A stretch of DNA of 64,000 nt from a virus. Under the pieces are notes generated by a model. The model searched no databases and had not been told where the DNA came from. It was given only the letters and a program-made list of their open reading frames with translations. The DNA is taken from IMG/VR virus record IMGVR_UViG_3300032235_000387, positions 1 to 64,000 of that record; one strand, written 5' to 3'. A program made the position numbers and the translations under genes. Positions within the stretch are counted from its first letter, which is position 1. Every line of letters starts with the position of its first letter. This document shows positions 6,155 through 29,961 of this stretch, piece after piece.

Positions 6155-6925
6155 TTAGTATCCAAAATAAAGTTTTATCCTATTCACCATATTAGATACT
6201 ACTGTAGCAATATCAGAACCTGAAATAGAGCCAAGTCCCCCGCCTTTTGATAGTAATGTAACAATTGCTAAAGTATTTGTTGAATTATTAGCAAGAAAAT
6301 AACCAGATTGAGCATTAGTATTAAAATCGGAATATTGTGACCTACTTCCAATTACACTTCCCCAATTTGGATGACCTATTAACATATAAACATCGCAAAC
6401 TGCAGGATCAGAAGAAGCTCCAAAAGTTTGTCTATAAAAATAATAAACTGTAAATCCACTAATAATTACTGTCGATGATGAAGTTGTAAGACTTCCGGAA
6501 CCATCAGCACCAACATTTCCACCTTTTTGCCACCCTATTGGTTGTAATGGACCAAAACGTGTTCCCATAACAGTTAATGGGAGACGTGAACCAGAATATC
6601 CAAGTGATGCATATTTAAAATCTCCATCTACTATAACAGATGAAGTATTACTATACGAAATTGCATATGGAAAAGGTCCAAATATTGATGTATAACTTGT
6701 TCCGGAAATTAATACTGGTGTTGTATAGTTTCCACCATCAAACATGTCATTACCACCATCATTAATAAAAGTTGAATCTCCATCTAAAGCATAAAAATAA
6801 AAAGATGGATTTCTATATTCACTCATAAACCCTGCCATGTATGATGCTAATCCATCAATACTATCCCATAAAATACTTTCTGGAGGAATACCACCACCCA
6901 TAAGCATTTGTTGAATTGCAGTCAT
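6155..6925 (-). CDS. Probable fibre tip or adhesin partner of the collagen-like protein
   Basis: Encodes 256 residues and starts inside the stop of the upstream collagen-like gene (ATGA-type 4-base overlap), so the two are translationally coupled. After a short helical N-terminus the protein is Gly/Ser/Tyr-rich and beta-like. It has a conspicuous DGDSTFINDGGNDMFDGGN segment near residues 50-66, and later GSGSLTTSSSTVIISGFTVYYFYR. No signal peptide, transmembrane segment or catalytic motif is seen. By position (last gene of a fibre operon, directly after the fibre shaft) it may be a tip adhesin or fibre chaperone analogous in place to T4 gp38. That role is inferred from position only. Confidence 0.7.
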   Translation of the reverse strand: MTAIQQMLMGGGIPPESILWDSIDGLASYMAGFMSEYRNPSFYFYALDGDSTFINDGGNDMFDGGNYTTPVLISGTSYTSIFGPFPYAISYSNTSSVIVDGDFKYASLGYSGSRLPLTVMGTRFGPLQPIGWQKGGNVGADGSGSLTTSSSTVIISGFTVYYFYRQTFGASSDPAVCDVYMLIGHPNWGSVIGSRSQYSDFNTNAQSGYFLANNSTNTLAIVTLLSKGGGLGSISGSDIATVVSNMVNRIKLYFGY

Positions 6926-10871: not shown

Positions 10872-13800
10872 TTATCTACCCAATGCAATAATTAAAGGTG
10901 TTACTGTATTTAACAAACTTTGACTAAATGCTCTTCCACTAATTGTTCCAGTAAGTTGATTTATAACAATTCCTTCACCAATTTGGAAGTTACCAGATTG
11001 ATTAGTACTGGTATAAACAACCTGACCACCGTTTCTTTTATCAACTTCATTTTCTTGAATTGATACTCCACCTAAAGCTGGTTTAGCAGTATTAATATTT
11101 GTACCAGATCCCACCCATTCAAGAGAAATTGAAGTAGCAATTTGAAGACTTAATCTTGAAAAGTAAACTGTTGTTCCTGCGCTCACTACATTATTTAGAT
11201 TTTGTGTTAGAACTATTGTTGAAATTCCAGATATTGGTAATGTAGCACTTTCAATATTATAATATAGAGGATACATAATTGCTTCTGCTACTGCACTACC
11301 AGATTCAAAGGAAATATTTGGAGTAGTTAAATATTGACTTCCATTACTGATTACATCAATGGATATAACTCTTCCAAATTCATCTACGTTTGCTGATGCT
11401 TCTGCAGAAATTCCATTTGGACCTTGTGGCGAATCAATAGTTACAATTGGGGGATCATCTGGATTATATCCACTTCCACCATCTATTACTCTTATAGTAT
11501 TAACTTGATAGTATAATTCTCCAAAATATATTGCTTGACCATCATAAGGTCTATTTTTTCCAACTCCAGAAACTACAACTGAAGCACCCTCTTCTTGAGT
11601 ATCTTGAATAACTTCTCCAGTATAACGATATATTGATTTTGTTTCGTAATCGCCAACACCATCAGAAACTAGTCCATAGTTTCCGAATGAACAGTTTGAG
11701 TTTGTAATATCACATTGTCCACCAGATTTTGTGAAGATTCCAATATCATCACAAATTGTAAATATCGAAACTAACTGGGAATATGCACCATTTGTAATTG
11801 AAACACCAATACCACCTTGATTATACTGAGTATAAGAGTCAACTGACATGGTTCCAGTAACACCAATATCTTCTTGATCTCCAGGTTCAGCTTCAAAACC
11901 ATCAACTTTCATTCCAATACTATCTGCAATAAAATTAGTGCAATTTCGTATGTATGGACCTTGAGTAATTGGACCGACACCTTTTGAATATGGAGGTTTG
12001 ACCACACCACCAGAAACATAATTATGTGCCATCGGTGCAGTTCCTACATTTACAGTAAATGTGTTACCTGTACCAACTACACTTAAAACTCTAAAATTAT
12101 AACCATTATTTCCTGTTGGATAAATTGTAGTTGTTCCTGATCCACTAGAACAAGAAAACTCTAGGTCTCTTAAAGAAACTACATCGTTAACTTTAACATT
12201 TAACCCAGGAGCAGTTATAGTAGTGATACCTGTTATATTATCATATGATGCTGTAGTAATACCAACAGCACGATTAATTACATATCCTCCAGAAACATAA
12301 TTGTGAGGAATTGTCGAAACTCCAGTATAAACATCGAAAGAATTATCATCATATACTTTATTAACATAAAATTCATAACCATAGTATCCAGATGGGAATC
12401 TTTGTGTAGATATTGAACCTCCAGAAGAGCAAGAGAACGATAAGTCGCGGATTTCTACCATATCACCTTTTTTAACTGAAAATCCAGGTGCTTTTAATGT
12501 AGTTTTACCTGAAGTTTCAGTATATACTGCACTTGTAATACCTACAATTGATGTAAATCCAGATCCACGATTTCCTGGGTATGATGTGGTAATTCCTGAT
12601 TGAGAACCTAAACCAACAATTGTTGTTACAACACCAACACATGAGCGAATTGCCGATACAACATTTGCACATCCATTGATTGCATTATTAAATCCAGTAT
12701 CTGGATCTATTTGCATTGAAATATCTTTTATTTGTGTATACTCATTTTGGAAATTTGTATATTTTTGTATTGTTCCACCAGAAACATAAGTGTGTGGTAA
12801 AGTTGATTGACCAACCACAACTTCAAAAGTATTAACACCAACAATTCTATTGACATTGAAAATATATCCATAAGAACCAGTTGGATATATTACTGTTGAT
12901 GGACCCGATGGACACGTAAATCCTAATCCAACAATCTTTACCGAATCATTTTTTATTAATCCATGATTTATTGCAGTAATTGTTGTAACTCCACTGATGT
13001 TATTATATTCTGCGTTTATAACCGTTGTGCCCAGTCCTACTGGATATCCTCCCCATGTGACGTTGTTAATTACCGCTCTTGCAATTTGATATGAATAATC
13101 TAAAGTTGATATTGTTTGTTGAACTTCTTGTGGGTTTTTTAATATTCCTGGTATTAAATTCCAATTATCGTCATAATACGATTTACCTGCACCAACACAC
13201 TTCGAATTTCCACCTCTAGTAATATCATGAATAACACATTTCCATATATCCCTTACATCATCTGCACAATCTTTACTTTCTAATGTAACTCCATATCTAA
13301 CTGATGGAGCATTTAATGTTGTCCCTGCACCAATCATATTGGTTACAATACCAACTAATTGTCTAATGGTTGTTCCTACGCCTACACACCCACCTTCAAC
13401 TTGAATGACTGAAAGATTCTTAACTTGAGTTATGCTATTACCAACTCCCTGATAAGAAATAGGAGGAGTTAAGTTATTAATAACATGAGTTGCAATTCCA
13501 GCAGCATAATCAAGAGCAGCGATAGTTGCTTGTGAAACACCAACTCCAGTAATATGAATTAAACCACCAGAACTATTAAAATATGAATATCCAGCACCTA
13601 TAGATTTACGATTACTATTTGCTTTTAAATCATAAGAAATAGCATTCATAATACTAACAACATCTTCTTTGCAATTGATATAACTGCTAATACCAAGAGT
13701 AAAGTTATATCCAGATGGCGAAGTTAAGAAACCAACTGCTTCTGCGGCAATATAATTTAAGTTTGAATCAATTAATTTTGCAGCATCTTGCTCTCTATGT

Positions 13801-16800
13801 CCACCAGCAAATCCACTAAATCCACTTGTTAAGAAACCAACAGATTCTCTAGCAATATAATCAAGGTTAAAACGAATCATTCTTGCACCATCAAAAAATC
13901 TATCAGAAGAAACACCTTCTAATGGTTGAAGAGCAACAACTGCAGCACCATTAGTCATAGGTGCTCCAATAAAACTTACATCAGTAATATGACATCCATT
14001 ATTAACATAAAATAGATCTCTATCACGATTTAATGGAGTGATGACACAATTTCTAAGTTCTGTACCTTCTACAGAAACAGTTCTTGCAAGAACAATCGGA
14101 TTATCTTCAACATAAGATCCAGGGAATACTTTAATCGTATCTCCAAAAAGTGCTACTGATGCTGCAGATTTAATAGTTCTTTTTGGATAATTTTCAGCCA
14201 ATCCTGTATTATTATCATTACCAGTCTGAGAGACATAAATTGTTTTACCAATTGGTCTATAAGCATCTACAGTTACAACACCTTTACCTGGATTTTGTGT
14301 TGATGTTATGTCAATACCAATTCCAGGAACTAATTGTGTTACGATTCCAACTAAATTAACTCCTCCACCATAATAATCAGTAGCAGTTGCTGTACCAACA
14401 ACAGTCAGTGTATTTGTGATGACACTTGTTCCAATACCAATACTTCCAGATGATGGATTAAAGACTAACTTTTCGGGTGAACTAAAAACTGTAGATATTT
14501 GACCACTTGCTGTTGTTGAAAATGCTGGATATGTAATTCTATTATTAGTATCTGGAGATACTGTAATATCATTTCTTCCTGGAGTTCCTTGTAGTCCTTG
14601 TAATCCTTGGCGACCTTGTAGTCCTTGTAATCCTTGTAATCCTTGATTACCTTGAAGACCTTGCCTACCTTGATTACCTTGAAGTCCTTGAAGTCCTTGA
14701 ATTCCTTGACGACCTTGAAGACCTTGGTTACCTTGAATACCCTGGACACCCTGGGATCCTTGAATACCTTGGATACCTTGGGATCCTTGTGTACCTTGGA
14801 AATTACTTAAAGGTCCCTGTAATCCTTGTATTCCTTGACGACCTTGTAATCCTTGGAGACCTTGAAGTCCTTGATTTCCCTGAAGACCTTGAGAACCTTG
14901 AGATGACTGCGTTCCTTGAGTTCCTTGGTTACCTTGAAGTCCTTGAGTACCTTGAAGTCCTTGAGTACCTTGAAGTCCTTGAAGACCTTGAAGTCCTTGA
15001 GTACCTTGGAAATTACTTAATGGACCTTGAACACCTTGATTACCTTGAAGACCTTGAAGTCCTTGTAGACCTTGAAGTCCTTGTAGACCTTGAAGTCCTT
15101 GAGTACCTTGGAAATTACTTAGAGGTCCCTGTAATCCTTGCGTTCCTTGTAGACCTTGATGACCTTGTAGACCTTGGTTTCCTTGAAGACCTTGTGTTCC
15201 TTGAAAACCTTGAAGACCTTGATTACCTTGAAGACCCTGTGTTCCCTGTGTTCCTTGAAGTCCTTGAAGACCTTGACGACCTTGGTTGCCTTGAAGTCCT
15301 TGAGTTCCTTGGAAATTACTTAGAGGTCCCTGTAATCCCTGTGTTCCTTGAAGTCCTTGAGTTCCCTGAAGTCCCTGAAGACCTTGATTACCCTGAAGTC
15401 CTTGAAGACCTTGATTTCCTTGAAGACCTTGAGTACCTTGATCTCCTTGAAGACCTTGATTTCCCTGAAGACCTTGGAAACCTTGAAGACCCTGTGTTCC
15501 CTGAAGTCCCTGAAGACCTTGACGACCTTGGTTGCCTTGAAGTCCTTGAATACCCTGGGATCCTTGAAAACCTTGAAGACCTTGATGACCTTGTGTACCT
15601 TGTGTACTTTGACGACCTTGAAGACCTTGAATACCTTGTCTTCCTTGAAGACCTTGACGACCTTGAAGACCTTGTGTACCTTGACGACCTTGAGTACCTT
15701 GAGTACCTTGGAAATTACTTAATGGACCTTGAGCACCTTGGCGGCCTTGTACACCTTGAACTTGAAGACCTTGAGTACCTTGAGTACCTTGAAAATTACT
15801 TAAAGGACCTTGAATGCCTTGGCGACCTTGTGCGCCTTGATTTCCAGTTCGATTGACATTTACTGTTATTTTTTGTGTATTTGATGGAATAGAACTTCCA
15901 CCAACATAAGTAACATTAATTTCATAATATGGAGCAGTTTCAAAAAAACCATTTACTACTCTGGAGAAAACTGAATCTATATTAAAAATATTTACTGCAG
16001 TACCAGATGAAGACTGTGTACTAATTATCAAGTATCCTTTATGTGAATTTATTGTATCATCCCAAGTAGAATACCAATTTGTTTGATCATTACCAAAAAT
16101 ATCATAATTACTTACATTAATTTGCGATACATTTGAAATAGATGAACTATTATATCTTATTTCTCCATTAGAAAATACATTGATAATTGGTGAAAATGAA
16201 CCTGGATAAGATGGTATTACCGTAGTTGTACTAAAGTAATATGGTGCACCACCAAGTGGACCAATTAATCCCTGGGTTCCTTGGAAATTACTTAAAGGTC
16301 CCTGTAATCCTTGTCTTCCTTGAAGTCCTTGTAATCCTTGGAGACCTTGAAGTCCTTGATTACCTTGAGTACCTTGAAAATTACTTAATGGACCTTGAAC
16401 TCCTTGGCGACCTTGAAGTCCCTGACTATTTTGAACTCCTTGAGGACCTTGAGTACCTTGAAAATTACTTAATGGACCTTGAACTCCTTGGCGACCTTGA
16501 AGTCCCTGACTATTTTGAACTCCTTGGGATCCTAAGCGGCCCTGCAATCCTTGTAATCCTTGTCTACCTTGAGTTCCTTGACTATTTTGAATTCCTTGAA
16601 GACCTTGATTACCTTGAAGTCCTTGAAGACCTTGATTACCTTGAAGTCCTTGAAGACCTTGAGTGCCTTGAAAATTACTTAAAGGTCCTTGGATACCTTG
16701 AGTGCCGGCACCTTGAAGACCTTGCAATCCTTGAAGACCTTGAGTACCTTGAAAATTACTTAAAGGTCCTTGGATACCTTGTGTTCCTTGACCAAATCCT

Positions 16801-16934
16801 CCACCCCCAGTTCCTCCAGATATGACAGATTGATTTTCACCTAATTGAATGTCACCATAAACAGTTATGCCCTTGAAAAAAGTGGCTTTTTCATTAAAAT
16901 AAGATTCATTACCAGTTACTGTTATGTCTGACAT
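10872..16934 (-). CDS. Giant collagen-like fibre protein with C-terminal beta-helix
   Basis: Encodes 2020 residues. Residues 1-48 form a short head (MSDITVTGNESYFNEKATFF...). A first Gly-X-Gln collagen-like region covers ~49-230. A globular beta domain (~231-365, with APYYFSTTTVIPSYPG) is inserted, then a second collagen-like region covers ~366-785. The TPGRNDITV junction and GSIGIGTSVITNTLTVVG-type segments come next. From ~890 a right-handed beta-helix-like domain begins (GKTIYVSQTGNDNNTGL, VFPGSYVEDNPIVL, VNNGCHITDVSFIG). Repeats of the form YPTGSYGYIFNVNRIVGVNTFEVVVG follow. The ALGR C-terminus abuts the 120-aa gene. This is a virion fibre, probably a trimer, that carries receptor-binding or sugar-cleaving surfaces. 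No active site could be assigned by eye. Confidence 0.9.
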   Translation of the reverse strand: MSDITVTGNESYFNEKATFFKGITVYGDIQLGENQSVISGGTGGGGFGQGTQGIQGPLSNFQGTQGLQGLQGLQGAGTQGIQGPLSNFQGTQGLQGLQGNQGLQGLQGNQGLQGIQNSQGTQGRQGLQGLQGRLGSQGVQNSQGLQGRQGVQGPLSNFQGTQGPQGVQNSQGLQGRQGVQGPLSNFQGTQGNQGLQGLQGLQGLQGRQGLQGPLSNFQGTQGLIGPLGGAPYYFSTTTVIPSYPGSFSPIINVFSNGEIRYNSSSISNVSQINVSNYDIFGNDQTNWYSTWDDTINSHKGYLIISTQSSSGTAVNIFNIDSVFSRVVNGFFETAPYYEINVTYVGGSSIPSNTQKITVNVNRTGNQGAQGRQGIQGPLSNFQGTQGTQGLQVQGVQGRQGAQGPLSNFQGTQGTQGRQGTQGLQGRQGLQGRQGIQGLQGRQSTQGTQGHQGLQGFQGSQGIQGLQGNQGRQGLQGLQGTQGLQGFQGLQGNQGLQGDQGTQGLQGNQGLQGLQGNQGLQGLQGTQGLQGTQGLQGPLSNFQGTQGLQGNQGRQGLQGLQGTQGTQGLQGNQGLQGFQGTQGLQGNQGLQGHQGLQGTQGLQGPLSNFQGTQGLQGLQGLQGLQGLQGLQGNQGVQGPLSNFQGTQGLQGLQGLQGTQGLQGTQGLQGNQGTQGTQSSQGSQGLQGNQGLQGLQGLQGRQGIQGLQGPLSNFQGTQGSQGIQGIQGSQGVQGIQGNQGLQGRQGIQGLQGLQGNQGRQGLQGNQGLQGLQGLQGRQGLQGLQGTPGRNDITVSPDTNNRITYPAFSTTASGQISTVFSSPEKLVFNPSSGSIGIGTSVITNTLTVVGTATATDYYGGGVNLVGIVTQLVPGIGIDITSTQNPGKGVVTVDAYRPIGKTIYVSQTGNDNNTGLAENYPKRTIKSAASVALFGDTIKVFPGSYVEDNPIVLARTVSVEGTELRNCVITPLNRDRDLFYVNNGCHITDVSFIGAPMTNGAAVVALQPLEGVSSDRFFDGARMIRFNLDYIARESVGFLTSGFSGFAGGHREQDAAKLIDSNLNYIAAEAVGFLTSPSGYNFTLGISSYINCKEDVVSIMNAISYDLKANSNRKSIGAGYSYFNSSGGLIHITGVGVSQATIAALDYAAGIATHVINNLTPPISYQGVGNSITQVKNLSVIQVEGGCVGVGTTIRQLVGIVTNMIGAGTTLNAPSVRYGVTLESKDCADDVRDIWKCVIHDITRGGNSKCVGAGKSYYDDNWNLIPGILKNPQEVQQTISTLDYSYQIARAVINNVTWGGYPVGLGTTVINAEYNNISGVTTITAINHGLIKNDSVKIVGLGFTCPSGPSTVIYPTGSYGYIFNVNRIVGVNTFEVVVGQSTLPHTYVSGGTIQKYTNFQNEYTQIKDISMQIDPDTGFNNAINGCANVVSAIRSCVGVVTTIVGLGSQSGITTSYPGNRGSGFTSIVGITSAVYTETSGKTTLKAPGFSVKKGDMVEIRDLSFSCSSGGSISTQRFPSGYYGYEFYVNKVYDDNSFDVYTGVSTIPHNYVSGGYVINRAVGITTASYDNITGITTITAPGLNVKVNDVVSLRDLEFSCSSGSGTTTIYPTGNNGYNFRVLSVVGTGNTFTVNVGTAPMAHNYVSGGVVKPPYSKGVGPITQGPYIRNCTNFIADSIGMKVDGFEAEPGDQEDIGVTGTMSVDSYTQYNQGGIGVSITNGAYSQLVSIFTICDDIGIFTKSGGQCDITNSNCSFGNYGLVSDGVGDYETKSIYRYTGEVIQDTQEEGASVVVSGVGKNRPYDGQAIYFGELYYQVNTIRVIDGGSGYNPDDPPIVTIDSPQGPNGISAEASANVDEFGRVISIDVISNGSQYLTTPNISFESGSAVAEAIMYPLYYNIESATLPISGISTIVLTQNLNNVVSAGTTVYFSRLSLQIATSISLEWVGSGTNINTAKPALGGVSIQENEVDKRNGGQVVYTSTNQSGNFQIGEGIVINQLTGTISGRAFSQSLLNTVTPLIIALGR
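14578..15844 (-). repeat. Collagen-like tandem DNA repeat, second block of the 2020-aa gene
   Basis: About 1.27 kb of 9-base Gly-X-Gln units, punctuated by recurring copies of a GPLSNFQGTQG-encoding element. That element is also found in the genes at 6922-10497 and 61886-64000. Confidence 0.9.
16262..16800 (-). repeat. Collagen-like tandem DNA repeat, first block of the 2020-aa gene
   Basis: About 540 bases of 9-base Gly-X-Gln units. Two adjacent stretches at ~16380-16450 and ~16451-16520 are nearly identical copies that run from a PLSNFQ element to an IQNSQG or VQNSQG element, indicating recent local duplication. Confidence 0.85.
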
Positions 16935-16945
16935 TTTTTATAGAG

Positions 16946-17602
16946 TTAATTACTTTCTTTTTTTTCTGCCGAAAACATTTTTTCTTCCATATCACTAAGA
17001 ACATTGGATGGGAAATTTGCAATTCCACCAGCAAGGTTACTTAAAGTTCCTGAGATATTAGGAACAATACCTTCAAAAGCACCAGAAACAATGTCTGCAC
17101 CAACAAAACTACCTTCAAAAACTTTCATTCCAAACGTGGGTGTAATTGCATTACCTGTTAATGCACTCTCATCAATTTTATTACCTTTTAATAAAATTCT
17201 TCCAGATCCAGAATTAAGATTTATATTTCTTCCTGCCTTTATATCAACATCTTCATCTGCCTCAATCATAACATTTTTTCCACGTATTCTAATTTTACCA
17301 TTTCTCATGGCAGTTATGGTAACATCACCATTCATTCCGGCAATAACAATATCTACACCATCACTAGATTCTTTATTTCCCGCGATGAATTCTATAGCCC
17401 TATCATTCCATATCCTATAAGTTCCAGATTCTGCTAAACCCGTAAAACAAACATCCTTATCATCAGTAACACCATACATTGCATAAACATTGGTTCCATT
17501 ACCCCCCATTTGGGGATTATTGAAATCAATCCTGAATTTTGGACCCATTCCAAAAATATCTCTAGATTCCCAATTTTGATTTTTTTTAGGTCTTTCTGCC
17601 AT
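16946..17602 (-). CDS. Baseplate spike-like beta-helix protein
   Basis: Encodes 218 residues. A charged N-terminus (MAERPKKNQNWESRDIFGMG) is followed by a run of alternating short beta strands (GVDIVIAGMNGDVTITAMRNGKIRIRGKNVMIEADEDVDIKAGRNINLNSGSGRILLKG region, ~residues 80-145). This VxIxAxxxIxIxG pattern is characteristic of the triple-stranded beta-helix needle of T4 gp5 C-terminus and VgrG-type spikes. The C-terminal ~70 residues are amphipathic. It lies one base after the gp5 gene, so the spike needle may be supplied here as a separate subunit that trimerises under gp5. Homology is inferred from pattern; position supports it strongly. Confidence 0.75.
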   Translation of the reverse strand: MAERPKKNQNWESRDIFGMGPKFRIDFNNPQMGGNGTNVYAMYGVTDDKDVCFTGLAESGTYRIWNDRAIEFIAGNKESSDGVDIVIAGMNGDVTITAMRNGKIRIRGKNVMIEADEDVDIKAGRNINLNSGSGRILLKGNKIDESALTGNAITPTFGMKVFEGSFVGADIVSGAFEGIVPNISGTLSNLAGGIANFPSNVLSDMEEKMFSAEKKESN

Positions 17603-17603
17603 T

Positions 17604-20066
17604 TTAATCCGGACAATCTCTTACTGTTGCGATTTCCCCTTGTGGAATTGTTGAAAGTGCTCTAATAATTGGTTTTAATATTGCACCAGAACCAGTATTA
17701 CTAATAATATTAATAATTGGAAGATCGCTTATAACTTTAGTATTTATTGGTTGATCTGGACGATCTGGATAGATTAATTGTGATGTAATAGTTTGTTGTT
17801 GAGGTGCACCAGTTATTGCATTATCCGTTAATGTAACATTTGCACCTATAATATTTCCATTTTCATTTATAGTGAGATTATAAGTATTGTCGAAATTATC
17901 AATAGCATAATCACCAATTTCATATCCGATTCCTGAGTTTTCAATCACAACTTCTGTAACTCCATAAGGAACGTATGGTGGATTATCCTCCGCAACTATT
18001 ACTGAAGATTCTATAGTAACGTTTCCTACTGGATAATTTTCACCTTCAGACACCATATAAATTTGTATTATTTTACCAGTATCATCAATTACTGATCTAG
18101 CCACTGCACCATATCCTTGACCACAATTATCCACAAATTCAACGAATGGTGGATATCTGTAACCAAATCCAGGATTATCAATTCTAACTCCTATTATACT
18201 TGATGTTGTTTTTTCATTAATTAAATTATTTTCAGAAATATTATTAGATGAAAAAGACCCAAGAATTGCAGTTGCTGTTGCTTCATATCCACCTCCACCA
18301 AAAATTTTTACTCTAGGTGGACCACATACTGGAGGTTTTCCTGTGTAACAACCACCAAATGGTGAAATGTAGTTAATGGATTTTGTAGATGATTTAAAAA
18401 TATCCCAAGATCCTACAGTTTTTTCAAAAGAAGATTTTTCAACTTCTTTCCTCATTTTAGAATCTGGTATTTTATCAATAATTGTAAATATGTCATTTAT
18501 AGTATAATTAGTTGCAATTCCACTATATTTTCTAACGACCGTTACTCTGTTATCATTTACTTTTTGAATTTTCATAATTTCAGCATTAGTAGAAATAAAT
18601 CCATCTACATTAACACCCTCAATATTTCTAAGAGTAATGATGTTATCACTCTTAGATACTGGTAAAATTGGTGAAGTAATTGATACTGTATTTTCTGAAA
18701 TTATTGAATCTTCAGAATTAACTTTTTCAAAACTAGCAATTTTTCCAATTTTATCAGCAATGTTCATTCCATTTAAAACAGTTTTAAATATTTTATTTTC
18801 ATTGTCACTAGATTTTCCACCATATCCTATTTTCCATTCTTTTATATTTCCAGAGCATTTTGATGCTGATTGATTTACATCAAATAACCCACCAATAGAT
18901 TTAATTGAACTTATTCCACTACGGAGAAAATCTGCGACACTAAAAGCTGCAGAAAGTATTTTTGAAACTCCATTTAAAGCCCCAGATAAACCGCTTACAA
19001 TTTTACTAATAATCGAATTCAAAAATGCTCCTGTAAATTGAGTTCCTACACAACTTGCAAAATTATCAACGTTATCAATAGTAGATCTAAGTAGATCTTT
19101 AATTGTTCCTTTTAAACCATCGACTATTTTATTTGCTATGGTAGAAATAGAGGTTTCTAAAAATTTTACAGGAGGAACCATAGCAGTTTGCGCTGCTACT
19201 CCAGCTAAATGTGCAATTGCATAATTTTGAGTTGCCGCATAAACTTTTGCAAATACTGTTTTGTATAATAATTCTAATCCTTTCTGGAGCAATCCAATTA
19301 ATTTATTGAACAATGAATTAAACATTTGCCCAACAAACCCATTTGAAATTCCTTGAATTTTTTCTGCTGATCTATCAATTTCTAAAGAAACTTTACTAGC
19401 AAATGAAGTTATATTTTGAACTTTTTGTAATAAATTATTAACTTCTGCACCAACACCTTTTACCAAGGTATCGTCACAACTATTTGAAAAAACTATTTCT
19501 TGACCAACACCAGTAAAATATGGTTTTTCATCTTTTACTTCTTTAGTATTATTAAGTTTTCCAATTTGAGAAGGTGAAAGATCTCTTGGAGATTTTTGAG
19601 ATTGTGAATTTTGTTCATTTGATTGATCTGCTTTTACTTTAGATCCATCATTTTTAATTCGATTAGTATATCCAGTAAATGGAACAAACGGAGAAGTAAA
19701 TTCATTACTTGGAACTTGAGATGTTCTACCAAAACAACCAATAATTACTGGTATTTGTCCATTATCACCATCTAAAAAGAAACCAAATACTGTGTCTCCA
19801 GGTTGAATTTTTGGATTTTCTGCATAATTTGCCCCACCACTTCCAGAAGTTGTTGGTAGTAATATTTGAGCCCATGGCAAATCTTCATTGGAAAGTTCAG
19901 TTGTATTATAAGGATGATACCCCAGAATTCTAACCTTACATCTATTTCCCCATCCACCACCATTTGATTGTTCACCTTGAGATGAAATTGGTGGTATTTG
20001 ACCAATCCACCATCTAAATCCATCTCTTCCTAAAAAATTACTTTTGAGTAATGATTCATCAATCAT
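17604..20066 (-). CDS. gp5: Baseplate hub subunit gp5-like, no lysozyme domain
   Basis: Encodes 820 residues. Residues 1-130 match the OB-fold of T4 gp5/VgrG (FRWWIGQIPP, GNRCKVRILGYHPYN, DLPWAQILLP, PGDTVFGFFLDGDNGQIPVIIG). In T4 the next domain is a T4-lysozyme-type muramidase. Here residues ~150-450 are instead helical and partly hydrophobic, with no E-D-T catalytic pattern. Residues ~560-820 contain repeated beta units (GFGYRYPPFVEF, GENYPVGNVTIES, GIGYEIGDYAID). The start overlaps the stop of the upstream gp27-like gene by four bases. The protein should cap the tail tube and carry the spike. Loss of the lysozyme is notable because the next-but-one upstream gene encodes wall hydrolases. 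Confidence 0.85.
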   Translation of the reverse strand: MIDESLLKSNFLGRDGFRWWIGQIPPISSQGEQSNGGGWGNRCKVRILGYHPYNTTELSNEDLPWAQILLPTTSGSGGANYAENPKIQPGDTVFGFFLDGDNGQIPVIIGCFGRTSQVPSNEFTSPFVPFTGYTNRIKNDGSKVKADQSNEQNSQSQKSPRDLSPSQIGKLNNTKEVKDEKPYFTGVGQEIVFSNSCDDTLVKGVGAEVNNLLQKVQNITSFASKVSLEIDRSAEKIQGISNGFVGQMFNSLFNKLIGLLQKGLELLYKTVFAKVYAATQNYAIAHLAGVAAQTAMVPPVKFLETSISTIANKIVDGLKGTIKDLLRSTIDNVDNFASCVGTQFTGAFLNSIISKIVSGLSGALNGVSKILSAAFSVADFLRSGISSIKSIGGLFDVNQSASKCSGNIKEWKIGYGGKSSDNENKIFKTVLNGMNIADKIGKIASFEKVNSEDSIISENTVSITSPILPVSKSDNIITLRNIEGVNVDGFISTNAEIMKIQKVNDNRVTVVRKYSGIATNYTINDIFTIIDKIPDSKMRKEVEKSSFEKTVGSWDIFKSSTKSINYISPFGGCYTGKPPVCGPPRVKIFGGGGYEATATAILGSFSSNNISENNLINEKTTSSIIGVRIDNPGFGYRYPPFVEFVDNCGQGYGAVARSVIDDTGKIIQIYMVSEGENYPVGNVTIESSVIVAEDNPPYVPYGVTEVVIENSGIGYEIGDYAIDNFDNTYNLTINENGNIIGANVTLTDNAITGAPQQQTITSQLIYPDRPDQPINTKVISDLPIINIISNTGSGAILKPIIRALSTIPQGEIATVRDCPD

Positions 20067-21391
20067 TTTTTCTGTCCGAAGGTGTCTCTTATTAGTTTCA
20101 TTGAAGTATACGAATTTTCAACGTTAAAATGATGACAAATTTCCTTTATCATATATAGACCACTTGTTTCGGGATCATATTCTTCAGAAGATGAATTACT
20201 AATTTTTGGGAAATTACATTCTATAATATCTCCCGCTTTTAAATTAGTATTTGATGGAACTACAATACTGAGTGTTTGAATAAACAAAAGATTATATCTT
20301 GTTATTGATTGTGATTGATACTTAGATGGATCTGAGTTTTGTTCAACAGAAACACCTTTTTCCATTGTACCAACATCAAGAACTTGTGTAATAATTCTAG
20401 TAGGAATATCACCAAGAGTTAATTCGGATGTATTGGATATTTTTGGTAGTTTTAATTTTTTACCAAGATTTTTTGATTTTTTAATATAATCTTTTGATTT
20501 AAAAACATTTTGCTCATAATCCGAAAATGTAAAATTTAAAGGATTAAAAAACATACGATGACTTGCATATGCACCAAGTTTTAATTTTTCTACTAAATTT
20601 TGATTTCTATCAACTACGTAATTTAAAATTTTAAAATCATTATCTATTTTTCTTTCAGTATTATCATAAGAAACATTTGCCTGAGTATAAGTATAAGATG
20701 CTTTTGGCGTTTGATTTATTAATGAATCTATTGATCTAAATTGAAATCCATCTTTAGTTTGATAAAATAAAAATCCTGCTGTAGCATCTCCAGAACTTTC
20801 TGGAACTCCTTTTGATGCTAACCATATCAATATTGTAAATGGTTTTCTTAAGTTTCCAATAAAACCATATTTGTTTGATGTTTTATCTATTGTTCCTATT
20901 TTAGAAGTTTTTAAATAATCTTTTAAAATACTTCTTACAGAATTACTTATTGGTGAACTAGTTGGATATTTTTTTCCTACTCTGATAGTTTCATTAGTAA
21001 TTGCTTCTCTTGAAACTAAATGTAAAGTAAAACTCTCTCTTTGAGTTTCAGATATAACATCAGTAATACTAGAAACATAAAAATAATCCTCGGGTTTTTT
21101 AGAAAAATCTAATCCTGGATTTTTTTCCGAATTTCCAGCAATTTTTACTAATAATCTTTCTCCTCCTCGAAGAGGTAAACCATTGTAAATTGATTCTTTA
21201 TTTCCATCTTGATTTTTAAATGATGTAATAGTATCACCAGTATTAACTACTTTAACTCTAGCAGTAATTGTTGGTGAAAAAATATCTTCAAAATATTCAA
21301 ATGCAATTGTTCCATTGCTAATATCAACAGTTCTACTTTGGTCGTTAGATTGTAAAATTAATTCTTCGTATATTGATTTTTTTGTTGACAT
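20063..21391 (-). CDS. gp27: Baseplate hub protein, gp27-like
   Basis: Encodes 442 residues with an N-terminus MSTKKSIYEELILQSNDQSR. Tube-fold segments follow (TIAFEYFEDIFSPTITARVKV; RESFTLHLVSREAITNE; KYGFIGNLRKPFTILIWLASKG). Length and position directly before gp5 match T4 gp27, the trimeric hub ring that joins tube to gp5. The ESFTLHLVS and ITNET segments resemble gp27/GpD-family hub proteins. It overlaps the 637-aa gene by one base and gp5 by four, so the three are translationally coupled. The gp27 identity is by context plus weak motif similarity. Confidence 0.75.
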   Translation of the reverse strand: MSTKKSIYEELILQSNDQSRTVDISNGTIAFEYFEDIFSPTITARVKVVNTGDTITSFKNQDGNKESIYNGLPLRGGERLLVKIAGNSEKNPGLDFSKKPEDYFYVSSITDVISETQRESFTLHLVSREAITNETIRVGKKYPTSSPISNSVRSILKDYLKTSKIGTIDKTSNKYGFIGNLRKPFTILIWLASKGVPESSGDATAGFLFYQTKDGFQFRSIDSLINQTPKASYTYTQANVSYDNTERKIDNDFKILNYVVDRNQNLVEKLKLGAYASHRMFFNPLNFTFSDYEQNVFKSKDYIKKSKNLGKKLKLPKISNTSELTLGDIPTRIITQVLDVGTMEKGVSVEQNSDPSKYQSQSITRYNLLFIQTLSIVVPSNTNLKAGDIIECNFPKISNSSSEEYDPETSGLYMIKEICHHFNVENSYTSMKLIRDTFGQKK

Positions 21392-23304
21392 TATAGATAC
21401 GCCAAATCTAAAAGAAGTTTTTGTTTAATAAAGTTATTTAACAAAGCAAAGTCAGATATTTGGGATTTTATAAGATTATTATCTTTTGTTTGTTGTGAAA
21501 TTTGTACTTTAGTTTCTTTAGTATTTCTATCATCAATAAAAAGAATTTGTTGTGCCTTTCTTTCTGTTGTAATTGAATCATAAGCAGTCTTAAAATTTTC
21601 TGTTTTTTTACTAGAAATTGCTGGTTGTGGTAAAACAGAAGATTGTGAAGAAATTGGTTTTGAAACTAAGTTTTCTGTAGGAGTTATTCCACCTCTATAT
21701 TCGAAGTGATAAGGATCTCCTGGTATATTTGCATAATACCATCCATATTTTGGACCATGTTGTTTCATCCAATTATAAGGTGCAGTATTAGGTTCCAAAT
21801 CAATTGCTAATCCTAATCCATGTTTTGAATAACCAGGTGTCGCTTTTACTGGTCCACTTACACGTTTCTGATGTTCATAACTTCTATAAGCACTATTAAT
21901 TGGAATATCTTTTCCATATGCTTTTTGTGCAGCAACAAATGATCTACCTGCAGAAGGATTTAACATAGCATTTCCACCATACCAATCTTGATAATCTGGT
22001 GGATAAGATAAAGGTTTAACCTTCATTAATTCTGAAGAAGTTAAGAATCCATTTTTATTTTTTGATGGTTGGGGAGGAGGTGGAGCAGTTGGTTTTGATT
22101 GAGGTGCTGGTGATGTTGATGTTGTTGTTGATACTGGTGTTCTTCTTGCTTGTTCAACAATTTGCCTTTCTCTTGAAGAATATTTTGAACCACCAACTGT
22201 CCATGCACCTATTCCTTTGTCTCTTAATACTGCAAGTCCAAGTAAATCTTGATTTTGGGGACTAAACATATCACTTGGAGTTAATCCAGCAGATTTTACG
22301 GCACCAGGTAAAGTATTTCCAATTATTTGATATTTTCCTGCTGCATGGATACCTCTATCAGGTCTTGCAGTTCTTGGATATTTTCTTTCATTTTGCCTAT
22401 CCATCACTTCACCAATCGTCATACTTGTAAGTGGTTTTCCAATTACTTTATTAGAATCTCCAGAACCAACGATTCTTCCATTCGCATCAGTTCCTTGATT
22501 CATTGCATTATAATTACCACCACTTTCTGGACCTGCAATAATATCAAGTGCTTGTTTATGAATACCAGTTAATCTACTTGGTGCAGTTTGTTGACCAGGT
22601 ACTGGTATTTGAGGATAAAACTTTTCTTCTGATGGTTGCCCTGTTGGCGGCGCTTCTTCTCCACCAGCAAGACCTTCAGATAAAGGTGTAGTTAATAATT
22701 TATATGCATCAAAAATTTGATCATTTATAGATTCGAACGAATTTGTTAATAGATCAAAAGAAGAATTAATTGTGTCTGGAATTTCGGAAAATTTAAATGA
22801 AACAACTTTTTGGAAAAGGTCTGATAATACATATCCAAATGTTTTTAATATATTCCCAACATTCCCTACAAATTTTGAAATTATTTCACCACCTCTTTGC
22901 ATTCTCGCAATAAATTCTTTACCCATCACTATCCAAGTTGGAATATTTTGAACCATCCATCCTGCAGTCATATATCCAAGAAATCCAAAAAGTCTACTTA
23001 ATATTCCTCCATTACCATAACTTGATGAAATATTAAATGTTTTGGATGGTGTCAATTTTAACGATGAAGATTCAATTTGATCTTCTATTTCCATTCTTCT
23101 TGTAAATTCTCTTCTTCTTGCTTCCAATAAAGAAGATTGATATGATAATTGAGTTCTTGCTTTTGTTTTATTTTGTATTATTTTAGCAACATTATCAATT
23201 GATCTATTTGCAATAGATAACTCTCTTTTAGTATAAAAAACTGATTTGCTGATATTTTTTACACCAATAGACGATTGTTTTATAGTTTCTGTAATTGTCG
23301 CCAT
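21391..23304 (-). CDS. Tail-associated double cell-wall hydrolase (muramidase-like plus M15 peptidase)
   Basis: Encodes 637 residues. Residues 1-110 are charged and helical; ~110-190 are hydrophobic or amphipathic. Residues ~245-385 resemble a lysozyme/transglycosylase domain: GPESGGNYNAMNQ with likely catalytic Glu ~260, then AAGKYQIIGNTL. After a Pro/Ser linker, residues ~430-540 match a VanY/M15 D,D-peptidase: AYRSYEHQKR, SKHGLGLAIDLEP (Zn ligands His ~495 and Asp ~502) and PYHFEY (His ~532, Glu ~534). The two activities would cut glycan strands and stem-peptide bonds in peptidoglycan during DNA entry. The gene is coupled to the gp27-like gene. It probably supplies the hydrolase that gp5 lacks, carried in the tail tube or hub. 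The M15 call is strong; the muramidase subtype is uncertain. Confidence 0.85.
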   Translation of the reverse strand: MATITETIKQSSIGVKNISKSVFYTKRELSIANRSIDNVAKIIQNKTKARTQLSYQSSLLEARRREFTRRMEIEDQIESSSLKLTPSKTFNISSSYGNGGILSRLFGFLGYMTAGWMVQNIPTWIVMGKEFIARMQRGGEIISKFVGNVGNILKTFGYVLSDLFQKVVSFKFSEIPDTINSSFDLLTNSFESINDQIFDAYKLLTTPLSEGLAGGEEAPPTGQPSEEKFYPQIPVPGQQTAPSRLTGIHKQALDIIAGPESGGNYNAMNQGTDANGRIVGSGDSNKVIGKPLTSMTIGEVMDRQNERKYPRTARPDRGIHAAGKYQIIGNTLPGAVKSAGLTPSDMFSPQNQDLLGLAVLRDKGIGAWTVGGSKYSSRERQIVEQARRTPVSTTTSTSPAPQSKPTAPPPPQPSKNKNGFLTSSELMKVKPLSYPPDYQDWYGGNAMLNPSAGRSFVAAQKAYGKDIPINSAYRSYEHQKRVSGPVKATPGYSKHGLGLAIDLEPNTAPYNWMKQHGPKYGWYYANIPGDPYHFEYRGGITPTENLVSKPISSQSSVLPQPAISSKKTENFKTAYDSITTERKAQQILFIDDRNTKETKVQISQQTKDNNLIKSQISDFALLNNFIKQKLLLDLAYL

Positions 23305-23305
23305 T

Positions 23306-25036
23306 TTACGTTACCACATTATACTGAAGTTTTGAATATAAAACATAAAAATTATCAGGATTGGAAGAATTTATTAGTGGCACATCAGTAATTGGTTCGG
23401 ATATAACTGGTGAAGATTGTGGTGTTTGATTATTTGAAGATGTGGTGGCAACTATAATATTTGGTTTAATTTCTGGAAGAACACCGACATTAGATGCTTG
23501 CTTTGGTGGACTTGTAATTTGAGGTTGTTCTTTTATAGGTTGTTGAATATTATTTTCATTCTGTATCTGTGAAACTTTTTGTACAGAATCTTTTAGTTTC
23601 ATTTCATTCCAATCATACCCTTTCATTTTTGCCCAATCTTTTGCACTTTGTTGATCTTCTGGACTCATTTGATTCCATGCAGTTTCAATTTTTCCTCTGG
23701 CAAATGGATTATTTCTATATTGCCATGCCATTTCATATTCCTTACTTCTATCAGACTTTGGTGGAGGAGGGGTAGATGTATTATTATTTGTATTTTCTTT
23801 CTGATTGACGTTTTCACCCATAACAGTTTGTTGTGGTGCTATAACTGGTGTTGGTGTTGAAGTTGGTGGAATTGATGTGGATGATGCTTCTTCAGGTTTT
23901 TTAGAAAAAATACTTGTTAAATTTGGAAAATTATAATTTTGAACAACATCATATGTACTTTTACCAATAGGACCTCCTACAACAGATCCAGTCGCACCAC
24001 CAATAAAAGATCCAATAGGTCCAAGTGGAGATCCCATAATTGCACCAGCAGTACCCAATACTGCTGCACCTGTTCCACCAGCAAATGCCCTTCCATAATT
24101 TTTTTCACCAGATGCAATATCAGCAGCAGTAGTAACTGCTCCTGTCAGAACTGGCATACTTTTTAAAGTATTGAATGCTGCACCAGCACCACTTTTTAAA
24201 ATATTGCCAATAGAGGTTAAAGGTGCGGATGGTTTAATTGATGGTAATTTTGGAATAATTGTAGTTTTTCCTTTTAAAAGTCCTGTCAATCCACCAATAA
24301 CTGATCCAGCGGCTTTAAAAGGTACTTTTATGATATTTCCAATTAATGCTGTTAACTTTAAAGGTAATGATATGATAGTTGAAATAATCCTATTAAATCC
24401 AATTTTAATTGCAGCTAACGCAGCAATAGAAAATCCTACGTTCTTTAAAATATTTGTTTTAATATCTGTTAATTTGTCAGTATCATTTTTTTCTTGTGCA
24501 TTAATATAATCTATTACTTGATTTGTTAACCAACCACCAAAAAGATATGTCAAAGATGTTCCTATTCTTTCAAAAATATTTTGAACTTGTGGTTGAAGTC
24601 TTTGAACAGGAGCAACCAATGCTGCTTGTATCTTCTGTTCTATTTTGTTTTCTCTTCCAAATCTTACTTGCTGTTCCGATAATCTTCTTTCTTTTTCTTG
24701 ATCTTCTCTTATCCTTGAAATTTCCGCATCACTATCTCTTTGTAAAGATGTGGAAATTCTTGTTAATCCAGAATTAAAATTTACTATTTCATCACGCAAT
24801 CCCTGTATTTGCCCTTCAATAGAAATTAAGGATTCTTGATTTGTTTTTGATGCTTCTAAATTTTTTGTATTATCTTCTTGAATTTTTGATATTAAAATAT
24901 CATCACGGTTAAATACCGAACTAGAAATATTTGTACTCTTTAAGTATACTTGACGAGAAGTTAAATCCAAAGGAGATTTTGTAAGAGGTACTATGGCACC
25001 TCCTTTAGCATTAGATTCTGTATCAAGTTCCGCCAT
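23306..25036 (-). CDS. Tape-measure or hub protein candidate
   Basis: Encodes 576 residues. Residues ~20-150 look coiled-coil (IQEDNTKNLEASKTNQESL, RIREDQEKERRLSEQQVRF). Several hydrophobic segments follow (TSLTYLFGGWLTNQVIDYI; GFSIAALAAIKIGFNRIIS; a Gly/Ala-rich AVLGTAGAIMGSPLGPIGSFIGGATGSVVGG stretch near 330). The C-terminus is rich in Pro, Ser, Gln and Asn (PPTSTPTPVIAPQQTV, QQPIKEQPQITSPPKQ). This matches the composition of tape-measure proteins and the length of T4 gp29 (590 aa, tape measure and hub). It lies directly downstream of the gp26 and gp51-like genes, the position expected for a tape measure after its assembly factors. Direct similarity to gp29 is not evident. Confidence 0.6.
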   Translation of the reverse strand: MAELDTESNAKGGAIVPLTKSPLDLTSRQVYLKSTNISSSVFNRDDILISKIQEDNTKNLEASKTNQESLISIEGQIQGLRDEIVNFNSGLTRISTSLQRDSDAEISRIREDQEKERRLSEQQVRFGRENKIEQKIQAALVAPVQRLQPQVQNIFERIGTSLTYLFGGWLTNQVIDYINAQEKNDTDKLTDIKTNILKNVGFSIAALAAIKIGFNRIISTIISLPLKLTALIGNIIKVPFKAAGSVIGGLTGLLKGKTTIIPKLPSIKPSAPLTSIGNILKSGAGAAFNTLKSMPVLTGAVTTAADIASGEKNYGRAFAGGTGAAVLGTAGAIMGSPLGPIGSFIGGATGSVVGGPIGKSTYDVVQNYNFPNLTSIFSKKPEEASSTSIPPTSTPTPVIAPQQTVMGENVNQKENTNNNTSTPPPPKSDRSKEYEMAWQYRNNPFARGKIETAWNQMSPEDQQSAKDWAKMKGYDWNEMKLKDSVQKVSQIQNENNIQQPIKEQPQITSPPKQASNVGVLPEIKPNIIVATTSSNNQTPQSSPVISEPITDVPLINSSNPDNFYVLYSKLQYNVVT

Positions 25037-25202
25037 TGGTACTATTTTTTAAGTTTTCTTCTTCAATAAACTGTTGTAGAAGAGTAAGATAAACTTCTCT
25101 TTCCCAAGGTATCATATTCTCTAACTCTGTCAAAGAATATTTATGATGTTGGATTAAAGCAAAATTTGTTTTATAATATGACGCAAGATCTTCATGCGCC
25201 AT
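25023..25202 (-). CDS. gp51: Small hub assembly factor, gp51-like
   Basis: Encodes 59 residues: begins MAHEDLASYYKTNFALIQHH, then KYSLTELENMIPWEREVYLT. The ATG at 25202 overlaps the end of gp26, and the stop lies 14 bases inside the next gene, so it sits in a fully coupled series. The helical pattern with MPWxxxxYxxLL is like the short tail-assembly chaperones encoded just before tape-measure genes. By position it corresponds to T4 gp51, the catalyst of hub assembly. The T4 protein is longer, so gp51 naming is tentative. Coding potential is well supported by the tight overlaps. Confidence 0.75.
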   Translation of the reverse strand: MAHEDLASYYKTNFALIQHHKYSLTELENMIPWEREVYLTLLQQFIEEENLKNSTNGGT

Positions 25203-25204
25203 TG

Positions 25205-25924
25205 CTAAGCGAAAAAACTTGTTAATCCCTCCAAAACAATTTCATTTTCAACTTTTGTATTTGGATTTAATATTTTTATAGTATGAGTTAACTTAGGCAT
25301 AGTTTCAAAAAACTTTTCAATTTGTTTAAATTGATTAGAAGTCAACTGCTCAATAAATTCAATTAATTCTTTTTTAGTAAAATCACTTGCAGCCCAAGAC
25401 TCTTCTTCACTATAAATTTGTTCTACACAATTGCAAATAAGATCAAAAGTTTCATCAACACTAATTTGCCCATCTCTAATAAAATTATTTTTTATAAATT
25501 CATTCATTGATGGATATTTCATTCTCATTGTTAAATTATCATCTAATTTAATATCCTTACTATGATTTTCTGGTATTCTTACTTTAATTTCATCAAGATT
25601 AATACTTACTGGAACTTGAGTTACCCCATCATCCGGGCAAGTAATTAAAACATCAACTTCTTCCCCTACAGATTTTCCACGAATATTTAAAAACAAATAT
25701 TCAATATCAAAAGTAGATAAGTTATCTACTTTAATACCTTTTGTTAAAATACAGTTTGATAATGTAGATTTAACAGAGTCTGTTATTTGTTTATTATCAT
25801 CACTCTCAAGTGCAATTATTAAAATCTTTTCTTCTTTTACCAAAAATGGTCTATATTTAATTGACTTTTTTAAAGAAGGAATTTCCAACTCATATGTTGG
25901 TGATGAAATAGATGGTAATGGCAT
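25205..25924 (-). CDS. gp26: Baseplate hub subunit gp26
   Basis: Encodes 239 residues: MPLPSISSPTYELEIPSLKK, then a region typical of gp26 (IKYRPFLVKEEKILIIALES, LTKGIKVDNLSTFDIEYLFLNIR, ISLDEIKV-like strands). The C-terminal half is helical (SVDETFDLICNCVEQIYSEEE, KELIEFIEQLTSNQFKQIEKFF). In T4, gp26 takes part in hub assembly. The PFLVKEEKILL and FDIEYLFLNIRxKS patterns are conserved across T4-like gp26 proteins. Cys-Asn-Cys in the C-terminal half is noted but without a known role. The gene is followed immediately by the gp51-like gene and the tape-measure candidate. Confidence 0.85.
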   Translation of the reverse strand: MPLPSISSPTYELEIPSLKKSIKYRPFLVKEEKILIIALESDDNKQITDSVKSTLSNCILTKGIKVDNLSTFDIEYLFLNIRGKSVGEEVDVLITCPDDGVTQVPVSINLDEIKVRIPENHSKDIKLDDNLTMRMKYPSMNEFIKNNFIRDGQISVDETFDLICNCVEQIYSEEESWAASDFTKKELIEFIEQLTSNQFKQIEKFFETMPKLTHTIKILNPNTKVENEIVLEGLTSFFA

Positions 25925-28729: not shown

Positions 28730-29382
28730 TGTCTTATTTTAGAGAACTTCCAGATCTAGAATATCAAACTCAATTATCGGATAGAGTTTCTTCTGATCAA
28801 TATACACTTGTTAAAAATTTGTTCAGAAGAGTAAAACTTCGTGATGATTTGCAGAATGTCTTTACAATATTTAACAAATATCAGATACCAGATGGATCAA
28901 GACCTGATTTAGTTTCTCAAGAATTATATGGAAGTTCGGAATATGATTGGGTAGTTTTAATATCTGCAGGAATAATTAATATTAGAGATCAATGGCCTTT
29001 ATCAGACAAAGACATTTATGATTATGCCTTAGAAGTTTATGGAAGTGATTTAAATTCAATACATCATTATGAAACAATAGAAGTTAAAGATTCTAAGGGA
29101 AGATTAATTCTTCCTGCAGGAAAAATAGTTGATGCATCATTTACTATACCAGATCCAGAAATTTTAATTACTAATATATCTCCAAACCCAGTAATTGGAA
29201 TAACAAATTATGAATATGAAATTAAAAAAAATAATGAAAAGAGAACAATCTATGTTCTAAAACCAATTTATTTACAACAAGTTTTAAAAGATACTAGAAA
29301 AAGTTTACTTTATGATGAATCTTCTGAGTATGTTAGTGAAAGAATAATTAGAACTGAAAATACTAGAAATACATTACCATAA
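28729..29382 (+). CDS. gp53: Baseplate wedge protein gp53
   Basis: Encodes 217 residues: MSYFRELPDLEYQTQLSDR, then VKNLFRRVKLRDDLQNVFT, YQIPDGSRPDLVSQELYGSSEYDWVVLI and INIRDQWPLSDKDI. The DGxRPDxVSxxxYGxxxYDWVVL and QWPLS motifs are diagnostic for gp53, a wedge component. The C-terminal ~90 residues (beta, then EKRTIYVLKPIYLQQVLKD) fit a LysM-like tail seen in cyanophage gp53. The 3' end overlaps the end of the converging Mom-like gene by nine bases. Confidence 0.92.
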   Translation: MSYFRELPDLEYQTQLSDRVSSDQYTLVKNLFRRVKLRDDLQNVFTIFNKYQIPDGSRPDLVSQELYGSSEYDWVVLISAGIINIRDQWPLSDKDIYDYALEVYGSDLNSIHHYETIEVKDSKGRLILPAGKIVDASFTIPDPEILITNISPNPVIGITNYEYEIKKNNEKRTIYVLKPIYLQQVLKDTRKSLLYDESSEYVSERIIRTENTRNTLP

Positions 29383-29961
29383 GAGTTCTAAACTCTTATC
29401 AAACATCATCACATATCGGTGTTTGCGGGAGCGGTCTTTCCATTCTCCTGCAGCACCTTTAATTTTGCCTCTAGAGTGTTTAGTTCCATCTGCAAAGTAG
29501 AAATCTTTTTTTGGGTTTGTGAGTCCGCAATATTTAAAGTTACAAGCGCGATAGATTGTACCATTATGGAAATCACTATCAGCGTAAGAGATGATTGCTT
29601 TAACTTCAGTATCCTTCCGTAACTGTCTAATCGCTCTTGAAACAAACCAAGAAGTGATATTATGCTCGTCAGATTGTGTGTCTGGGTGAATGCAGAGGCG
29701 CGAAAGTTCAAATAGTCCTTGTTGTTCATTTCGTTCTAATCCAAAAGCACCTTTGGCGATTTCTGGAACAGGAAGTCCAGTAAAAATACAAACTCCTAAA
29801 AGACCACCAACATTCAAAGGACTGAAATCATTCTTTTTAAAAAGTCCGTAATTATATCCAGACTTAAATCCCTTTGAAATATCTTTAAGATAGTGGTATT
29901 CTAGGAGTAGTTCTTCTGCCTGTTTTTTAGAAATCTTATCAATATAATAATCAGATTTCAT
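29374..29961 (-). CDS. Mom-like DNA-modification enzyme (GNAT-like fold)
   Basis: Encodes 195 residues. Motifs include EELLLEYHYLKDISKG, YNYGLFKKNDFSPLNVGGLL, FELSRLCIHPDTQSDEHNIT, SWFVSRAIRQLRKDTEVKA, IISYADSDFHNGTIYRACNF and FYFADG near the end. The ELSRLCIHP, NxTSWFVSRAIRxL, ISYADxxxxHxGxIYxAxNF order matches the Mom family. Phage Mu Mom converts adenine in DNA to N6-carbamoylmethyladenine and so blocks restriction enzymes; a GNAT-like fold is proposed. Placed alone between a terminator and gp53, it may be expressed with gp32 by read-through. Family assignment is fairly confident; activity is inferred. Confidence 0.8.
   Translation of the reverse strand: MKSDYYIDKISKKQAEELLLEYHYLKDISKGFKSGYNYGLFKKNDFSPLNVGGLLGVCIFTGLPVPEIAKGAFGLERNEQQGLFELSRLCIHPDTQSDEHNITSWFVSRAIRQLRKDTEVKAIISYADSDFHNGTIYRACNFKYCGLTNPKKDFYFADGTKHSRGKIKGAAGEWKDRSRKHRYVMMFDKSLELLW

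Follow-up and report, generated by a model that had tools for sequence, protein, structure and literature searches.

T4-like cyanophages abound in natural waters, and phage tails that cut the wall in two ways are already known from A-1(L), diffocin and phi29. The tail-tip protein gp13 of phi29 (PDB 3csq) has lysozyme-like and M23 domains. The hub protein gp15 of the Anabaena myophage A-1(L) (PDB 8KEA) carries lysozyme, endoglucanase and peptidase domains, the latter two of which were shown to lyse cells (PMC10966104). In diffocin, the hub-hydrolase CD1368 bears a lytic transglycosylase and a peptidase in tandem on one tail protein (PMC11329794). The tape measure gp17 of mycobacteriophage TM4 contains a wall-cutting motif that is helpful for entry, and loss of 114 residues of the motif makes the tail ~20 nm shorter (PMC1796659).

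The 64,000-nt window analysed here belongs to an IMG/VR virus fragment of 71.2 kb. Compared with their counterparts in the freshwater Synechococcus phage S-SRM01, the window's gp26 is 74% and its gp27-like protein 71% identical, which marks the source as a T4-like cyanophage relative; the 71.2-kb fragment showed no psbA-type gene. A previous sequence-only reading had pointed to gp5, a 637-aa protein (here B) and a needle gene; these were found where it placed them, on the minus strand, with a gp27-like gene between gp5 and B. The tail locus contains the following features, with the basis of each assignment in brackets:

16946..17602, minus strand: separate spike/needle, 218 aa (PHROG 3363; weak DUF2345/VgrG-like matches)
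17604..20066, minus strand: gp5-type spike base, 820 aa, OB domain only (Pfam, PHROG, profile and fold search)
20063..21391, minus strand: gp27-like hub protein, 442 aa, without hydrolase (PHROG 350, E 1.5e-108; T4-GC15 position in P-SSM2)
21391..23304, minus strand: protein B, 637 aa (ORF; domain searches; AF2 model; conserved ends)
21682..22062, minus strand: M15 (VanY/LdcB-type) zinc peptidase domain of B, residues 415-541 (Pfam; profile against PDB)
22135..22572, minus strand: lambda-lysozyme-like (GH104-like) domain of B, residues 245-390 (profile against PDB; alignment; AF2)
23306..25036, minus strand: protein A, 576 aa, paralogue of the B N-terminus (hhalign; HMMER; PHROG 794)
25023..25202, minus strand: gp51-like small ORF, 59 aa (position and size match annotated gp51 of relatives)
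25205..25924, minus strand: gp26-type baseplate hub, T4_baseplate (Pfam PF12322, E 4.4e-72)

The gene order gp26-gp51-A-B-gp27-gp5 is conserved in the T4-like cyanophage isolates examined. In some of them the gp27-gp5 interval holds small genes, e.g. CP12, and a single gene replaces the A+B pair in the cluster C phage S-CRM01 and in the Pelagibacter phage HTVC008M. Outside this locus, a 195-aa ORF directly downstream of a gp53-like gene (29374-29961, minus strand) gave zero matches in an NCBIfam search.

Profile and HMM searches bore out the view that the 637-aa protein near gp5 joins a glycan-cutting and a peptide-cutting domain. B consists of a helical N-terminus (residues 1-205), the lambda-lysozyme-like domain, a linker, the M15 domain and a conserved C-terminus whose final residues are NNFIKQKLLLDLAYL. 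The lysozyme-like domain was missed by Pfam; a profile of 35 sequences matched lambda lysozyme in the PDB (3d3d/1am7, E 2e-6), and the AF2 model had a pLDDT mostly >90 in this domain. The presumed catalytic Glu260 was invariant in 35/35 aligned sequences, and an AAGKYQ motif is present at 321-326, with E, A, G and Q invariant in the 35 rows. The M15 domain matched Pfam VanY above the cut-off (E 5.5e-7), and its profile matched PDB 4ox3 (E 3e-13) and carboxypeptidases of the YodJ/LdcB type. It displays the M15 (VanY/LdcB) signature, SxHxxGxAxD plus a second His with an acidic base: the ligands H495, D502 and H533 were invariant in an alignment of 8 relatives, and the base D530 was D or E in 7 of the 8. 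Given the conservation of E260 and of the M15 ligands, both active sites of B look intact and both activities are predicted. Family profiles were needed because single-sequence PDB searches were uninformative, the whole 637-aa protein returning nothing relevant and the lysozyme-like domain alone borderline matches only. A Foldseek search with the whole AF2 model of B gave no significant match, probably because long helices dominate the model and the M15 part was modelled at low confidence, the underlying alignment mixing M23 and M15 in that region.

The gp5 protein (PHROG 1922, E 5e-131) had been described as keeping the OB-fold and lacking the T4 lysozyme domain, and our searches agreed on both points. 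Residues 56-158 matched Pfam Gp5_OB with an E of 2.5e-4, just under the family cut-off; a profile of 38 relatives matched T4-type gp5 in the PDB over OB columns only (E 7e-6); and Foldseek matched the gp5 model to T4 gp5 (1k28) over ~110 columns. The lysozyme domain was absent by family, profile and fold search. In the structure model, long helices and not a lysozyme fold are predicted for residues 200-367. When the Phage_lysozyme family was searched, no cyanophage gp5 gene was matched and T4 gp5, the control, was positive. The claim that wall-cutting had moved out of gp5 as a feature of this phage is not supported: among the T4-like cyanophages examined, a lysozyme-free gp5 is the general rule, and no sign of a relocated T4 lysozyme domain was seen, since the lysozyme of B is lambda-type and not T4-type. 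The spike-like needle is, as proposed, a separate gene, identified only through PHROG 3363 (E 6.5e-64, labelled unknown function) and weak DUF2345/VgrG-like matches. Beyond it lie two very long minus-strand genes with collagen-like Gly-x-Gln repeats (6922-10497 and 10872-16934), with a 120-aa ORF between them; on the opposite strand, the long plus-strand ORFs at 9423-10289 and 14789-15856 look like repeat by-products.

B is probably mislabelled as a 'hub protein'. The gp27-like hub is encoded by a gene of its own and has no hydrolase, the N-terminus of B is helical, and at this locus hub barrel and hydrolases do not share a polypeptide. B is paired with its 576-aa paralogue A (hhalign probability 95.9, E 5e-9; HMMER 8e-7), the paralogy spanning the N-terminal ~100 residues. 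Pairs from S-SSM4 (9e-19), S-PM2 (6e-17) and S-SZBM1 (1e-10) were likewise related, and the B protein of P-SSM2 is clearly homologous to that of the window (E 3e-37). A has a tape-measure-like hydrophobic middle and matches PHROG 794 (tape measure) at 3.5e-5, although the tape-measure PHROG matches of A and B are weak. The gp29 family (phrog_1283), detected in T4, was undetected in the window's record and in 11 complete related phage genomes. Neither A nor B showed significant similarity to T4 gp29 by hhalign (probability <1), nor to the tape-measure-like gene of HTVC008M (probability 6.8), the link to which is by position only. In S-PM2, gene A (L037:5357-8860) encodes an ADP-ribosyltransferase-like domain at residues 66-220 (Pfam ART, E 1.3e-5); it is N-terminal, precedes the tape-measure-like part and might enter the host with the tail contents.

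Proteins encoded at this slot have been found in virions. Mass spectrometry of purified S-CREM2 virions detected the slot proteins ORF208/209, called endolysins, with 73 and 71 unique peptides (PMC10665884), and ORF213/214 were detected by the same method in purified S-SCSM1 virions (PMC9602691). By analogy with A and B of these relatives, the window's own B is presumably a virion protein.

The cutting domains of B differ among relatives. A recognised glycan cutter together with a recognised peptide cutter was present in 37 of the 57 B proteins of the window's clade; 18 had a single recognised cutter (glycan only in 10, peptide only in 8) and two had none. The glycan cutters are lambda-type, Phage_lysozyme2, GH73 or SLT, the peptide cutters M23, M15 or CHAP/amidase, and the domain order is inverted in three proteins. 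A tree of the B N-terminal backbone requires at least 17 changes of the glycan module, and shuffled labels require 16 on average, so that the identity of the module shows no signal of descent. M15 arises amid M23 in at least three separate places of the tree, one of them the window. None of 56 A proteins of this clade has a cutter, and a search of 55 relatives of A likewise found no hydrolase; outside the clade, A can bear cutters as well or instead (S-PM2, S-SCSM1, S-CREM1, S-N03). S-N03, S-H34 and S-CREM2, all of cluster C, have a pair with two or three glycan cutters in which no peptidase was recognised, so that one of each is common, not universal. The slot of the Prochlorococcus phage P-SSM2 and of HTVC008M yielded no recognisable hydrolase, and an unassigned stretch of P-SSM2 may hold one. 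Universality of both cassettes was accordingly rejected. The lack of a recognisable hydrolase in the slot of these two phages, two genomes only, fits the plausible idea that dual cutting may be an adaptation to the thick cyanobacterial wall.

We give slightly better than even credence to the explanation that A and B are a lumenal, hub-anchored pair of tail virion proteins that does the job of gp29, with B acting as a two-blade entry cutter with swappable cassettes. A and B would take over from the tape measure gp29 and occupy the lumen of the tail tube, their conserved C-termini anchored at the gp27/gp5 hub. Upon infection the spike would depart and the pair would be freed into the periplasm, where the lambda-type domain of B would cut glycan strands and the M15 domain stem peptides to make a hole for the tube, while A, with its hydrophobic stretch, may aid membrane crossing. 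The cutting domains would be cassettes in fixed slots, exchanged between phages. Domains, catalytic residues, A/B paralogy, the conserved slot, cassette swapping and the undetected gp29 (11 genomes) are shown by the present searches, and virion presence of A and B was shown by others in relatives; lumen location, ruler role, anchoring, order of events and enzyme activity are inferred.

A ruler should leave a trace in tail length. Published tail lengths were compiled for eight isolates, which were measured in different laboratories and are related by descent: S-SRM01 (100 nm), S-SZBM1 (113.6 nm), S-H34 (129 nm), S-N03 (138 nm), S-CRM01 (140-170 nm, a published range), S-CREM1 (165 nm), S-SCSM1 (173 nm) and S-CREM2 (418 nm). 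S-CRM01 was entered as 155 nm, and the correlation was also computed without it. The length of the longer protein of the pair, max(A,B), correlated with tail length (r 0.93, p 7e-4, n=8) in these related and heterogeneous data, in which S-CREM2 has high leverage; without S-CREM2 r was 0.83 (p 0.02). B length alone performed as well as that of A (r 0.91), and gp27 length gave r -0.27. Over 17 phages the lengths of A and B went together (r 0.89, rho 0.93; for comparison, A with gp27, r 0.18). A moderate correlation was seen between gp5 and A (r 0.64), and A and B lengths showed no rank correlation when only the window's own clade was considered (rho 0.10). Tail length per residue of max(A,B) was 0.13-0.18 nm in seven isolates, close to the ~0.15 nm implied by TM4, in which 114 aa were expected to give 17 nm (PMC1796659). 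S-CREM2, with 0.27 nm per residue, falls outside the range of the other seven.

The tail of S-CREM2 is the longest of any isolated myovirus according to its authors, and the main text of that paper names no tape measure (PMC10665884). Its ORF208/209 (L034:3403-12474) are tape-measure candidates. Ser/Thr/Asn-rich repeats account for the enlargement of A, and 27 motifs of a 13-residue repeat, F-x-Q-S/T-x-G, for that of B; the two arrays are unrelated to each other. The tail of S-CREM2 is ~280-290 nm longer than those of its cluster C kin S-N03 and S-H34, and its A and B are each longer by 630-730 residues. The extra tail thus amounts to 0.4-0.5 nm per extra residue, which suggests that the added chain is extended rather than helical. 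Both proteins are also much longer (A 1041 aa, B 932 aa) in a metagenomic contig related to the window's clade (L093, 2076-8001), where they are enlarged by low-complexity Pro/Gln/Ser-rich spacers, partly 39-base tandem repeats.

A more specific form of the favoured explanation, which we hold tentatively and at less than even confidence, is a two-protein ruler, possibly a mixed A/B bundle born by duplication, in which B (elsewhere A) is the exchangeable two-blade cutter and repeat expansion produced the S-CREM2 tail. The contribution of the TM4 tape-measure hydrolase motif to tail length counts for a ruler reading of A and B. Against it count the lack of similarity to gp29 and the weak tape-measure PHROG matches, the prediction of only ~205 residues of B as long helices, the few, related and heterogeneous tail lengths, the absent A/B rank correlation in the window's clade, the correlation between gp5 and A, and the single gene of S-CRM01 and HTVC008M.

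That one gene suffices in those two phages is also what would be expected if A alone were the tape measure and B a duplicated A that has become a hub or baseplate tail lysin, like those of A-1(L) and diffocin, and measures nothing. All cassettes of the window's clade are on B and none on A, and the known dual-activity tail enzymes of contractile systems are hub proteins (PMC10966104, PMC11329794). We regard this division of labour as rather unlikely, because B length tracks tail length as well as A length does, both proteins are lengthened in S-CREM2 and L093, and hydrolases are found on A too, or instead, in S-SCSM1, S-PM2, S-CREM1 and S-N03.

It is improbable that A and B act as internal pilot proteins and are ejected along with the DNA, their length correlation being a by-product of descent and genome size and the ruler being another protein. 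In favour of this view, the tail-length data points are few and related, A and B have no homology to gp29, and their lengths are not rank-correlated within the window's clade; yet gp27 shows no length trend and gp5 only a weaker one, S-N03, S-H34 and S-CREM2 differ by ~280 nm in tail together with 630-730 residues in A and B, and the hub cluster yielded no other ruler candidate.

Free-standing small lysozymes occur elsewhere in the genomes of relatives (158 aa in S-SRM01, 169 aa in S-PM2, 238 aa in S-N03), which indicates that B is not needed for lysis. Thus, although PHROG and GenBank label many such proteins endolysin, endolysins also bear M15 and lysozyme domains, and the S-SCSM1 authors consider endolysin contamination of virions possible (PMC9602691), we rejected as most improbable the view that B is an end-of-infection endolysin and a mere virion contaminant, on the grounds of its fixed place in the baseplate-hub operon, its paralogy with A, its long helical N-terminus, the many peptides in purified virions (PMC10665884) and the separate lysozymes of several relatives.

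Recent papers class the genes of the A/B slot as endolysins or lytic enzymes, and gp29 was undetected in the genomes checked. If the pair does the work of gp29, a single locus would account for both the setting of tail length and wall cutting on entry, repeat expansion in A and B would be a plausible cause of the 418-nm tail of S-CREM2, and the slot would offer a natural set of glycan and peptide cutter combinations.

All in all, the locus resembles several known systems in part. With T4 it shares the operon neighbourhood of gp26, gp51 and gp27 and the OB domain of gp5, whereas A and B have no sequence similarity to gp29 and the window's gp5 has no lysozyme domain. A-1(L) gp15 is likewise a dual-cutting contractile-tail protein of a cyanophage, and the profiles of B match its lysozyme and peptidase parts; in that phage, which is not T4-type, the enzymes are grafted on a gp27-type hub barrel, whereas in the window the hub is separate and the enzymes sit on the tape-measure-like B. 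Diffocin CD1368 has tandem glycan and peptide cutters as B does, but it is a gp27-like hub with an NlpC/P60 peptidase and a Gram-positive target. The profile of B matches phi29 gp13 (3csq) weakly over both domains (E 4e-4), but gp13 belongs to the tail knob of a short-tailed phage and lacks a ruler-like part. TM4 gp17 also holds a wall-cutting motif within a tail protein of the length-setting type, to which B would belong if it is a ruler; there a single gene of a siphophage is involved and one activity was tested, whereas the window has a duplicated pair, two predicted activities and exchangeable slots. New here is the siting of dual cutters, as exchangeable cassettes, on a duplicated tape-measure-like pair with a putative ruler role.
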